Shown piece by piece: positions 5,872 through 25,332 of a DNA stretch of 33,418 nucleotides (within the stretch, counting starts at the first letter, position 1; every line of letters begins with the position of its first letter). The DNA lies in contig JAJFHO010000046.1 of the NCBI GenBank assembly GCA_021775575.1, positions 1-33,418 of the forward strand, given 5' to 3'. The notes under the pieces are model-generated. The model was not told the origin of the DNA. It saw nothing but the letters and a program-made list of their open reading frames with translations, and ran no database searches. The position numbers and the translations under genes are program-made. The DNA is from Hyphomicrobiales bacterium (GTDB lineage: Bacteria; Pseudomonadota; Alphaproteobacteria; Rhizobiales; Methyloligellaceae).

Positions 5872-7551
5872 ATGAGGCTGCTGAATAGTGCTGCGTGCGG
5901 CTTGATTCTCTGTTCCGTTTTTGCAGGTTCGGCGGTTGCCGTCGAGCCGGGCGCGCCGGAGCAGTTGATCACACGGCTCGACGCTGTTGGCGTCGAGGTT
6001 CAAAAACGATTGACGGCGAGTTTCCGGGCGAATTCGGAAACCGAATTCGAGAAGACGGAACATGGCGCGCTGGTCGAATATTATGCCGACCACGACCACA
6101 GCCCGATATGGGTGAATGCCGGCGGACTGACCGACCGGGCACGGGCGCTAAAGCGGGAACTGGCCAGGGCCGCGGACTATGGCCTCAATCCGGACGACTA
6201 TGCGCTTCCCGAGCTTGCCGCCGCCAAAGCCGGCGAAAAGCTCCCGGCGGTAAAGCTCGCCGAAGCCGAAGTGATGTTGAGCCATGCGGCGCTCGCCTAT
6301 ATCCGCGGCGCGCGCGGCGGACGTATCATTCCGGGCTCGCTCAGCAGAAATCTGGATCCGACGCTGAATTTGCCTGATCCGCTGGCGGTTATCGAAAAGA
6401 TCGCCACGCTCGACGATCCGGCGCCCTATCTCGTCGATTTCCATCCCAAACACCCGCAATTCGAGGCCTTCCGCAAGCTTTTGCTGACGATGCGCGGCGG
6501 AACGGAAGAGAAGAAAATCACCATTCCCGATGGCCCGATAATTCGGCCTGGCGGAAGCCACAAGCAAATTGCGCTGCTGCGCAAACGGCTGAAAGTGCCG
6601 GTCCCCGAGCGCGGCGGCGCCGCTGTTTTTCCGGAGCATGTGTATGATTCCGCTTTAGAAATAGCAGTGAAGGAATTTCAGAAGTCACGCGGTCTGAATG
6701 CTGAAGGCATTGTCGGCCCGGCCACGCGGCGTGCCCTCAATGTGCGCCCGCGCAACTCCGTGCGCACAATCCTGGCGAATATGGAGCGCTGGCGCTGGAT
6801 CCCGGATGACGTTGCAGAGCGGCTCAATGTCCAGGTGAATGTGCCGGAGTTTACCGTTCGCGTGTTCGACGAGGGCAAGGCAATCCACACCGAACGCGTC
6901 GTCGTCGGCAAGACCAAGAATTCAACGCCGATATTCAGCGACCAGATGGAGACGATCGTTTTCCATCCCTATTGGAATGTACCGAACTCCATTAAGGAAA
7001 AGGAGATTCTCCCGAATCTGCGCCGGCGCGTCATAAGCGACGGCTGGTTCGGCGGATTCTCGCGCGGCGACGCCCGCTTTCTGGCGCGCAACGGCCTGCA
7101 CATAAAATATAGAGGGCGGCCGGTCGATCCTTCCAGCGTCAACTGGAACAGCGTCGACATAAAACGCTACCATTTCTACCAGAAACCGGGTGGCGGCAAT
7201 GTGCTCGGCGTCGTCAAGTTCATGTTCCCGAACAAGCACTCGGTTTACATGCATGACACGCCTACCAAGCATCTGTTCGCAAAACCGACGCGCGCATACA
7301 GTCACGGCTGCATGCGGGTCAGAAACCCGCAACGGCTGGCCGAGATTCTTCTCGCCCGGGATGCCGGATGGAGCAAGGGCAGGGTCAGCGGCGCGGTGCA
7401 GAGCAAGGTTCACCGGCCGGTCCAGCTGCAAAAGCCGATTCCCGTCCATGTGACCTATTTCACCGCGCGGGTCCGGGCCGATGGCACGATTCGTTATTTT
7501 GGCGACATTTACGGTCACGATGCCCGGATGGCAAAGGCTTTGAAATTCTGA
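5872..7551 (+). CDS. L,D-transpeptidase, YkuD domain (LdtD/YcbB-like)
   Basis: A 559-residue exported peptidoglycan enzyme that forms 3-3 (mDAP-mDAP) cross-links or attaches other groups to the wall. Residues 1-23 are a signal peptide with an AVA cleavage motif. After a scaffold region (about 40-230) comes a peptidoglycan-binding motif (about 260-292, ALEIAVKEFQKSRGLNAEGI then GPATRRALN) and a YkuD catalytic domain (about 317-500) with the signature SHGCMRV, catalytic Cys480 and His478. The overall order matches the large YcbB/LdtD class, not the short periplasmic ErfK class. The ribosome-binding site AGGAGG is well placed at 5858-5863. A DUF882 peptidase gene follows after a strong terminator. 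In Escherichia coli ldtD and mepK (DUF882) are also adjacent, which supports a shared cell-wall role. Confidence 0.93.
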   Translation: MRLLNSAACGLILCSVFAGSAVAVEPGAPEQLITRLDAVGVEVQKRLTASFRANSETEFEKTEHGALVEYYADHDHSPIWVNAGGLTDRARALKRELARAADYGLNPDDYALPELAAAKAGEKLPAVKLAEAEVMLSHAALAYIRGARGGRIIPGSLSRNLDPTLNLPDPLAVIEKIATLDDPAPYLVDFHPKHPQFEAFRKLLLTMRGGTEEKKITIPDGPIIRPGGSHKQIALLRKRLKVPVPERGGAAVFPEHVYDSALEIAVKEFQKSRGLNAEGIVGPATRRALNVRPRNSVRTILANMERWRWIPDDVAERLNVQVNVPEFTVRVFDEGKAIHTERVVVGKTKNSTPIFSDQMETIVFHPYWNVPNSIKEKEILPNLRRRVISDGWFGGFSRGDARFLARNGLHIKYRGRPVDPSSVNWNSVDIKRYHFYQKPGGGNVLGVVKFMFPNKHSVYMHDTPTKHLFAKPTRAYSHGCMRVRNPQRLAEILLARDAGWSKGRVSGAVQSKVHRPVQLQKPIPVHVTYFTARVRADGTIRYFGDIYGHDARMAKALKF

Positions 7552-22456: not shown

Positions 22457-22531
22457 TGGTGGGCGCGGTTGGGATTGAACCAACGACCCCTACGATGTCA
22501 CCGTAGTGCTCTCCCGCTGAGCTACGCGCCC
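22457..22531 (-). tRNA. tRNA-Val (anticodon GAC)
   Basis: 75 bases including an encoded CCA. Acceptor stem GGGCGCG pairs with CGCGCCC, D arm GCTC/GAGC, anticodon stem CTACG/CGTAG with loop GTGACAT (anticodon GAC, reading GUC and GUU), variable loop GGGTC, T arm GTTGG/CCAAC with loop TTCAATC. All stems are perfect. Confidence 0.97.
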
Positions 22532-22619: not shown

Positions 22620-23009
22620 CTATGCCGCGAGAAGCCGTTCCACTTCATCGACCAGATCGCGAAGGTGGAAAGGTTTGGACAATATCTTGGCATCCTTGGG
22701 CGCGTCGCTGTCCGGCTTGAGGGCAACGGCGGCAAAGCCCGTGATGAACATGATCTTCAGCTCCGGATCGAGCTCGGCGGCCCGCCGGGCCAGTTCGATG
22801 CCATCCATCTCCGGCATCACGATATCGGTCAGCAACAGCGTGAAGGGTTCTTCCTTAAGCCGTTCATACGCCTGCGCGCCGTTGCCGAAATCGACGACAT
22901 CGTAGCCCGCATTCTGCAGTGCCTTCACAAGAAAACGCCGCATATCGGCGTCATCTTCCGCAAGAAGAATACGGCGCATATCTCCATTTTGTGGCTCGTT
23001 CACCGGCAT
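22620..23009 (-). CDS. cpdR: Single-domain response regulator CpdR
   Basis: A 129-residue receiver-only protein with strong CpdR character: RRILLAEDDADMRRFLVKAL, phospho-acceptor D62 in LLLTDIVMPEMDG, FITGFAAVALKPDSDAPKDA and SKPFHLRDLVDEVERLL. In Caulobacter, unphosphorylated CpdR docks on ClpXP and primes degradation of CtrA-pathway and other cell-cycle substrates; phosphorylation through CckA-ChpT turns it off. I kept the start at 23009 because AGGGGG lies eight bases upstream; the ATG at 22979 would give the shorter form usually annotated. A perfect CtrA box lies 73 bp upstream of this start. Confidence 0.94.
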   Translation of the reverse strand: MPVNEPQNGDMRRILLAEDDADMRRFLVKALQNAGYDVVDFGNGAQAYERLKEEPFTLLLTDIVMPEMDGIELARRAAELDPELKIMFITGFAAVALKPDSDAPKDAKILSKPFHLRDLVDEVERLLAA

Positions 23010-23286: not shown

Positions 23287-24189
23287 ATGAGTTCAAAAGA
23301 CACGGTGCCCGTCGACGGCGAGTTATCACAGCCATTCACCCTGCACAGGCCGCACCGGCGCGATACACCGTTTATCTTCAATTCACCGCATAGCGGACGC
23401 ATCTACCCCAAGGCGTTCCTGGCCGCGTCGCGCCTCGATGCCTTGACGCTTCGCAAATCCGAAGACAGCTATGTCAACGAGCTGTTCGCGGACGCGCCCG
23501 AATTTGGCGCGCCGTTGATGCATGCGCATTTCCCGCGCGCCTATCTGGATCTTAATCGCGAACCCTATGAACTCGATCCTGCGCTGATCGCCGAATCCCT
23601 GCCGCACTACGCGAATACCCAGTCGGTCCGCGTCGTTGGCGGGCTTGGAACAATTGCGCGCGTGGTGACCGAGTCGGAAGAGATCTACCGCGAACCGCTG
23701 CCGCTTACTGAGGCGCTTGAACGGATCAACCTGTTTTACAAGCCCTATCACAATATTCTGGGTGAACTGATGCTGGAGAGCCGGCGCATCTTCGGAATCG
23801 CGATTCTGATCGACTGCCATTCCATGCCCTCAGGCCAGGCCGCCGAATGCGCAGGGCCGCGACCCGACTTTGTGCTGGGAGACCGTTTTTCAACATCATG
23901 CGATACGGAGCTGACCGGCTGCATTGCCAGGGAGCTGCGCCGGTTGGGCTATGTCGTCGCACTGAACAAACCTTATGCCGGCGGCTTCATCACAGAGCAT
24001 TATGGCAGGCCGAAAGAAGGATTTCATTCGCTGCAGATCGAGGTCAACAAGGCGCTCTATATGAACGAGACGAATTTTGCGAAGACGTCCGGCTTCCGGG
24101 CAATCCGCCGGGATATGGCGCAACTGATCAGAATGCTGGCCGAATACACACCGAATCTGATTACCGTGCCGAAAGCGGCCGCGGAATAG
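23287..24189 (+). CDS. N-formylglutamate amidohydrolase (second, HutG-like)
   Basis: A 300-residue member of the N-formylglutamate amidohydrolase family: FIFNSPHSGRIYP (about 29-41, with the metal-binding SPHSG), the RAYLDLNREPYELDP segment (arginine and asparagine contacts), ILIDCHSMPSG (His and Ser), the NKPYAGGFITEHYGRP loop and LQIEVNKALYMNE. These are closer to the classical enzyme than those of the copy at 9911-10774. It would release formate and glutamate. No other histidine-degradation gene is nearby. The neighbourhood cpdR / FGase / sRNA / hisN resembles that of other Hyphomicrobiales. Confidence 0.9.
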   Translation: MSSKDTVPVDGELSQPFTLHRPHRRDTPFIFNSPHSGRIYPKAFLAASRLDALTLRKSEDSYVNELFADAPEFGAPLMHAHFPRAYLDLNREPYELDPALIAESLPHYANTQSVRVVGGLGTIARVVTESEEIYREPLPLTEALERINLFYKPYHNILGELMLESRRIFGIAILIDCHSMPSGQAAECAGPRPDFVLGDRFSTSCDTELTGCIARELRRLGYVVALNKPYAGGFITEHYGRPKEGFHSLQIEVNKALYMNETNFAKTSGFRAIRRDMAQLIRMLAEYTPNLITVPKAAAE

Positions 24190-24216: not shown

Positions 24217-24251
24217 AAAAAAGGGGGCCGTTCGAGAAGTCCGAACGGCCC
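24217..24251 (-). terminator. Intrinsic terminator of the alpha-r8 sRNA
   Basis: A perfect 10-bp stem (GGGCCGTTCG, 24251-24242 on the minus strand with 24234-24225), seven-base loop, two Cs and then six Ts. The T run is only on the minus strand, and no protein gene on that strand lies upstream, which shows that a small transcript ends here. Confidence 0.88.
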
Positions 24252-24295
24252 AAGTCTAGGGAGGAAACGCCCAAGAAGGGCACGCAGGTCGACAT
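24217..24295 (-). ncRNA. Alpha-r8 / suhB-family small RNA (MmgR-like)
   Basis: On the minus strand a short transcript can be drawn: a small hairpin (GCCC-TTCTT-GGGC, 24282-24270), the single-stranded motif TTTCCTCCCT at 24267-24258, and an intrinsic terminator (24251-24225 plus six Ts at 24222-24217). The ten-base TTTCCTCCCT between a 5' stem and a terminator is the hallmark of the alpha-r8 family (Rfam suhB; MmgR of Sinorhizobium meliloti), so named because copies lie beside suhB-type inositol monophosphatase genes, as here (hisN at 24517). The motif is complementary to Shine-Dalgarno sequences. The 5' end is estimated from the usual length of about 77 bases. The remainder of the 327-bp gap holds the hisN promoter and no gene I can see. 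Confidence 0.82.
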
Positions 24296-24516
24296 CAATG
24301 ATGCCAATGCCGCGTTGCAACAACATGACATTGCGGCGCACAAATCACAAGATATAAACAAGCATTCGTGTAAAAATTGGACCTCACTGGTGCGGTTTTG
24401 TCACACCAACAACAAATGGGAGCATTACCGCTGCTGCCCATGAATGCTGACTTTGCTATAAGACCATTCAATAAATTACTGATCTAGTTTAGAAAAACCA
24501 GAGCCGGGATCCCTGC

Positions 24517-25332
24517 ATGAATGACCAAAAAGACCCCGGATTCGATGCCCTTTTGAGCTTTGCGCACACCCTTGCGGATCGCTCTGCCGCTGCCATTTCG
24601 CCCTATTTTCGGGCCACGCGGTCGGTCGAGAATAAGTCTCGGACGGAAGTATTCGACCCTGTGACAGCGGCGGACAAGGCCGCCGAGCAAGTGATTCGCA
24701 ATTCAGTCGCGGAGACGTGGCCGGCACATGCGGTGCTGGGCGAAGAGTTCGGATTGCAGCCCGGTATAGGCGGCGCGGAGGCCGAATACTGCTGGATCAT
24801 TGATCCAATAGACGGAACCCGGTCCTTTATCACGGGTATGCCTGTCTGGGGCACCCTGATCGGGTTAAACCGGCTCGATACTCCAATACTCGGGATCATG
24901 AACCAGCCTTTCACCGGTGAAAGATTCTGGAGCGACTTGGACGGCGCATATTATCGTGGTCCCGATGGCGAGCACCCGATTGCAACCCGGAGCTGCGCTT
25001 CCCTGGCCGCCGCGACGCTGCTCTGCACCGGCCCCGAATTCTTCGACGTTGCCGCCGATCTCGAACGCTTCGAGGAGCTTAGCGGGCAGGTTCGCATGCG
25101 CCGCTACGGCGGCGATTGCTACAGCTATTGCATGCTGGCGGCGGGGCATGTGGATCTTGTTGTCGAAGCGGGGCTGCATACCTACGACATCGCCGCGCTG
25201 ATTCCAATCGTGGAGCGTGCCGGCGGGCGGCTGACTTCGTGGACCGGGGAACCCGCAACCCAGGGCGGGCGCGTTGTCGCCAGCGGTGACCGGGAGCTGC
25301 ACGAGGCGGCGATGGAAATCCTCTCGCGCTAG
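24517..25332 (+). CDS. hisN: Histidinol-phosphatase, inositol monophosphatase family
   Basis: A 271-residue magnesium-dependent phosphatase. The metal site is visible: GEEFG (about 76-80), IDPIDGTRSFITGMP (about 94-108) and the second signature GLHTYDIAALIPIVERAGG near 220-238, with the last Asp in the YDIAA position. The DGTRSFI wording and GGDCYSYCMLAAGHVDLVVE segment favour the HisN (histidinol-phosphate) branch over inositol-phosphate SuhB, though the two are hard to separate by eye. HisN dephosphorylates histidinol phosphate in histidine synthesis. Its TAG shares the CTAG palindrome with the stop of the convergent hydrolase gene. Confidence 0.87.
   Translation: MNDQKDPGFDALLSFAHTLADRSAAAISPYFRATRSVENKSRTEVFDPVTAADKAAEQVIRNSVAETWPAHAVLGEEFGLQPGIGGAEAEYCWIIDPIDGTRSFITGMPVWGTLIGLNRLDTPILGIMNQPFTGERFWSDLDGAYYRGPDGEHPIATRSCASLAAATLLCTGPEFFDVAADLERFEELSGQVRMRRYGGDCYSYCMLAAGHVDLVVEAGLHTYDIAALIPIVERAGGRLTSWTGEPATQGGRVVASGDRELHEAAMEILSR

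Follow-up and report, generated by a model that had tools for sequence, protein, structure and literature searches.

The window, by which we mean the whole stretch of 33,418 nucleotides analysed here (contig JAJFHO010000046.1 of a Hyphomicrobiales bacterium), holds on its minus strand a small RNA (sRNA) gene of the alpha-r8 family, flanked by a gene of the N-formylglutamate amidohydrolase (FGase) family and by hisN (Table 1). The FGase-family gene scores below the cut-off of the TIGR02017 hutG equivalog model, whereas hisN reaches 310 bits against a TIGR02067 cut-off of 275. By FGase protein, the nearest named genomes are those of uncultured bacteria, BMS3Bbin10 and the Hyphomicrobiales MAG SZUA-148. 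The cell-cycle response regulator gene cpdR also lies in the window (22620-23009, minus strand; NF046022 above its cut-off), adjoined by a tRNA gene at 22460-22531.

Table 1. Coordinates of the sRNA locus and of the second alpha-r8 copy (window positions unless a contig is given)
Feature	Position	Strand	Basis or remark
FGase family gene	23287..24189	+	PF05013, 241 bits; convergent with the sRNA
Rho-independent terminator	24219..24251	-	11-bp stem (24251-24225), then CCTTTTTT
Predicted alpha-r8 (MmgR/SisA-type) sRNA transcript	24219..24315	-	About 97 nt, the 5' end approximate and deduced from the -10 box; RF00519 match plus conserved upstream extension
Unpaired anti-Shine-Dalgarno 10-mer UUUCCUCCCU, family core	24258..24267	-	Sequence and fold
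Second hairpin SL2, GCCC-UUCUU-GGGC, invariant stem	24269..24281	-	Covariance match, fold and alignment
5' hairpin SL1, outside the Rfam model	24282..24315	-	Fold of the 99-nt transcript and covariation
-10 element CATGTT (relatives CATATT)	24322..24327	-	Promoter alignment
Dyad TGCGCCGCA in the spacer, core of the PhaR/AniA box TGCRNYGCASMA	24332..24340	-	Motif count
-35 element CTTGTG (relatives CTTGAA/T)	24346..24351	-	Promoter alignment; 18-nt spacer to the -10 element
hisN, histidinol-phosphatase, inositol monophosphatase superfamily	24517..25332	+	TIGR02067 and PF00459; divergent from the sRNA
Second alpha-r8 copy	L002:1501-1690 (own contig C84, ~6296-6485)	-	RF00519 match

Family, fold and neighbourhood of the sRNA

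A covariance-model search with RF00519 (suhB, that is MmgR, listed by Rfam as 'Makes More Granules Regulator RNA'), which the first-pass annotation had proposed, gave a minus-strand match at 24288-24210 that covers model positions 1-77 of 77. Its score of 65.5 bits is above the gathering score of 41 bits (E-value 1.5e-11 for the window, 4.4e-13 genome-wide). The location, strand and family name put forward in that annotation are thereby borne out, and so is the described arrangement of the core between a short stem and a strong terminator, which is seen both in the sequence and in the fold: on the minus strand a 4-bp stem (GCCC-TTCTT-GGGC) precedes TTTCCTCCCT, after which come a GC-rich terminator of 11 bp and CCTTTTTT. 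The 79-nt match folds at -28.6 kcal/mol (z = -3.4 against dinucleotide shuffles). The annotated interval of 24217-24295 was rightly placed but is too short, lacking the promoter and most of the conserved hairpin at the 5' end.

The Rfam model starts inside the gene, and alignment of the window with its relatives (28 sequences) revealed a further hairpin 5' of the model, SL1, whose sequence differs between species while its pairing is kept: for five of the six consensus pairs there are relatives in which both partners differ. In the same 28 sequences two upper pairs of the terminator covary, and UUUCCUCCCU is nearly invariant among the relatives. The 99-nt fold (-44.2 kcal/mol) leaves UUUCCUCCCU exposed with a mean unpaired probability of 0.91, and AGACUU lies between it and the terminator stem. 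One relative (L024:1501-1575) has a changed core, GTCTCCCTCAGACTT instead of GTTTCCTCCCTAGACTT, in an otherwise intact gene, which may reflect an error in sequencing or decay of the copy.

The order and orientation FGase-sRNA-hisN recurs in 28 of 29 relatives; the remaining one has no hisN match. In 77 of 80 further public loci the antisense core lies downstream of an FGase gene, at a distance of at most 300 nt in 74 of the 80. The first-pass annotation had regarded the place beside an inositol monophosphatase-type gene as the original genomic position of the family, which is half right. The element was indeed first noticed upstream of a COG0483 (suhB-like) ORF of A. tumefaciens, but Corbino 2005 inferred an sRNA on the opposite strand with no tie to specific neighbours (PMC1273637), and according to Vogt 2025 the main copy usually adjoins an FGase gene (PMC12559287). 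Here the sRNA is flanked by both genes, FGase being the neighbour that defines the locus and hisN the other conserved one.

RF00519 is present in 259 of the 297 genomes of the order. Because the covariance model, promoter, terminator, 10-mer and synteny all agree on the alpha-r8/suhB/MmgR identity, the locus is, judged by its sequence, a complete and typical gene for an sRNA of the MmgR/SisA type, which is widespread in Alphaproteobacteria. Weak RF00519 matches at a syntenic place in relatives were set aside, as those tested against Rfam are the known sRNA BjrC1505 (RF02356). In several relatives (L121, L122 and L126, at ~900-1050) the BjrC1505 matches are separated from the alpha-r8 gene by tens of kilobases.

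Promoter, PhaR/AniA box and second copy

The promoter is strongly conserved just upstream of the sRNA in the alignment of relatives. In the window its -35 and -10 elements are weaker than theirs, and a generic scan called no promoter. The spacer carries TGCRNYGCA in 27 of 29 related promoters, the window included, where 0.1 would be expected, and the relaxed form TGCRNYGCR occurs in 60 of 76 more distant promoters (0.5 expected). This dyad forms the core of TGCRNYGCASMA, the consensus for PhaR binding that footprinting helped to derive in Bradyrhizobium (PMC6201568); the final three consensus letters (SMA) are unmet in the window, which reads ATG. The conserved position of the box agrees with the dyad that reviews describe between the -35 and -10 elements of mmgR, together with control by AniA and NtrC (PMC8401924); in the MmgR system PhaR/AniA acts as repressor and NtrC as activator. 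The genome encodes phaR, hfq and three phasin genes. Taken at the level of sequence, the promoter looks wired to a carbon-storage sensor, and a PHB-linked input is supported. On one other contig of this genome (L118, contig C200), two tandem phasin genes lie beside a tRNA gene.

A second, divergent copy elsewhere in the genome, on contig 84, scores 52.4 bits with RF00519. In this copy UCUCCUCCCU replaces UUUCCUCCCU, and no PhaR box was found there. Upstream of it stand two direct repeats of 34 nt, GAGCGGCGTTTAAAGTTCCGCCGCTCATCCTCCC, both of which form a hairpin with CAUCCUCCC behind it. A possible small ORF also precedes this copy, and up to three CCUCCC sites may share one RNA. Among 24 relatives no orthologue was found beyond the alpha-r8 core. 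As a lead, the second copy may be a lineage-specific RNA with multiple anti-Shine-Dalgarno (anti-SD) sites.

Predicted targets

We scanned the genome for the exact complement of the core, AGGGAGGAAA, 2-10 nt ahead of an ATG. Five such places were found, against none for the reversed-pattern control. Four of the five genes encode solute-binding proteins from four Pfam families (DctP, SBP_bac_5, TctC and Phosphonate-bd), and the fifth encodes a short-chain dehydrogenase. Another strong Shine-Dalgarno (SD) sequence, GGAGGT, preceded solute-binding proteins in 0 of 19 genes of this genome, judged by protein starts and the family table (4/5 versus 0/19, Fisher p = 5e-4). Duplex energies of the five sites range from -18.9 to -25.8 kcal/mol, those of control leaders mostly from -11 to -19. 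Within the window the leaders of FGase and hisN pair weakly (-12.3 and -10.2 kcal/mol) and were rejected as targets; an exact complement of the 10-mer occurs in the window solely on the opposite strand of the sRNA itself.

In 25 genomes, this one and 24 relatives, an ATG follows the matching 10-mer ~80 times, AAGGAGGAAA 26 times and AAAGGAGGGA 11 times. Solute-binding proteins account for 34 of the 65 AGGGAGGAAA genes that were examined (the five of this genome included) and for 2 of 35 controls, counts made by hand from family tables and protein starts (the control denominator being 36 in one calculation) that are not independent, since the genes across relatives are partly orthologues.

AGGGAGGAAA doubles as a good SD sequence, and solute-binding proteins tend toward strong SDs. 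By inspection of protein starts, the scrambled strong SD AAAGGAGGGA also precedes three solute-binding genes among ten, and one genome without a detected alpha-r8 gene (G029) has solute-binding genes at two of its four AGGGAGGAAA sites; part of the enrichment is therefore due to strong SDs at transporter genes. The same AAAGGAGGGA observation would fit a reading in which AGGGAGGAAA at transporter genes reflects a preference for certain SD sequences, or in which a different anti-SD sRNA (AbcR, NfeR1 or the second alpha-r8 copy) targets these genes, with the present copy acting on other mRNAs. The candidate targets of NfeR1 are mostly ABC transporters (PMC10746234), and a second alpha-r8 copy does exist in the genome. 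Against this stand the roughly threefold excess of the sRNA-matching variant over AAGGAGGAAA in the same 25 genomes and the membership of four of the five own AGGGAGGAAA genes in unrelated solute-binding families, and we consider this explanation rather unlikely. NfeR1 (alpha-r14) and AbcR1/2 resemble the window sRNA as anti-SD sRNAs with ABC-transporter targets, but they belong to other families with a different core and structure, and Rfam places the window locus in RF00519. Transporter solute-binding proteins are the best targets that sequence predicts, and we give a transporter regulon of this sRNA an about even chance.

The first-pass annotation had suggested a tie of the sRNA to carbon storage through MmgR, which in S. 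meliloti has a PHB phenotype and is accompanied by changes in the PhaP1 and PhaP2 proteins (PMC8401924; PMC7143759). The input side of this tie is supported by the PhaR-box core in the sRNA promoter, the genome also encoding PhaR and three phasins. The output side, in which the sRNA would directly limit phasin synthesis and hence PHB, in line with the MmgR phenotype, fares worse. The three phasin leaders show no special pairing with the core (-12.8 to -15.2 kcal/mol), no better than ordinary leaders, and are not favoured as direct targets, though the sRNA may act on phasins indirectly; in addition, the Sinorhizobium literature knows no direct base-pairing target of MmgR (PMC12559287). We regard this route as improbable. 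We conclude that these comparisons do not support a direct effect on phasins in this genome, and that the sRNA most likely serves to restrain nutrient uptake. Least credible of all is that the hairpin, which lies 36 nt past the FGase stop codon, merely terminates or attenuates a neighbouring gene and makes no sRNA, for the T-run is on the minus strand alone (its plus-strand side having none, a terminator of the FGase gene is excluded), hisN is transcribed away from it, and the promoter, both hairpins (SL1 and SL2) and the exposed 10-mer are all kept across the order.

Proposed role

The window sRNA shares with MmgR (SmelC689, alpha-r8) of Sinorhizobium meliloti the full-length covariance match, the 10-mer, the terminator and three hairpins, as well as the dyad between the -35 and -10 elements and the presence of the PHB regulator PhaR/AniA in the genome. 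It differs in its predicted length of ~97 nt, compared with 77 nt for MmgR, owing to a larger 5' hairpin, and in being one of two alpha-r8 copies where S. meliloti has one. In Caulobacter crescentus, the Hfq-dependent sRNA SisA represses an mRNA through an identical 10-mer, as proven by compensatory mutations, and its targets are rich in transporters (PMC12559287). SisA has in common with the window sRNA the FGase neighbour, the 10-mer and transporter targets (predicted here); the Caulobacter siblings lack a common promoter motif, whereas the window promoter carries the conserved PhaR box. Taking identity and mode of action jointly, we think it probable that this is an alpha-r8 sRNA, an MmgR/SisA orthologue, with a SisA-like trans-acting mode.

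We infer from these features that the sRNA would be expressed from a sigma-70-type promoter, which PhaR/AniA could occupy and repress, as a minus-strand transcript that starts near 24315 and ends at about 24219. With Hfq bound, the unpaired UUUCCUCCCU would pair with the SD region of mRNAs and block their translation. The main predicted targets would be the solute-binding proteins of TRAP, dipeptide-type ABC, tripartite tricarboxylate and phosphonate-type ABC transporters, with the short-chain dehydrogenase as a further one. As PhaR signals the state of PHB, the sRNA would in this way link the rate at which nutrients are imported to the carbon store.

A broader, lineage-specific reading, which we offer tentatively, is that the alpha-r8 sRNA acts as a PHB-sensed global brake on nutrient import and that the PHB phenotype of MmgR is indirect. 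PhaR, bound to or released from PHB, would set the level of the sRNA; the 10-mer would silence a solute-binding regulon drawn from unrelated transporter classes; and the PHB phenotype of MmgR would follow from altered uptake. No direct target of MmgR has been published for Sinorhizobium. The AGGGAGGAAA transporter genes and the PhaR box amount to a short testable list, and, if true, the transporter regulon would explain the rise in PHB on loss of MmgR.
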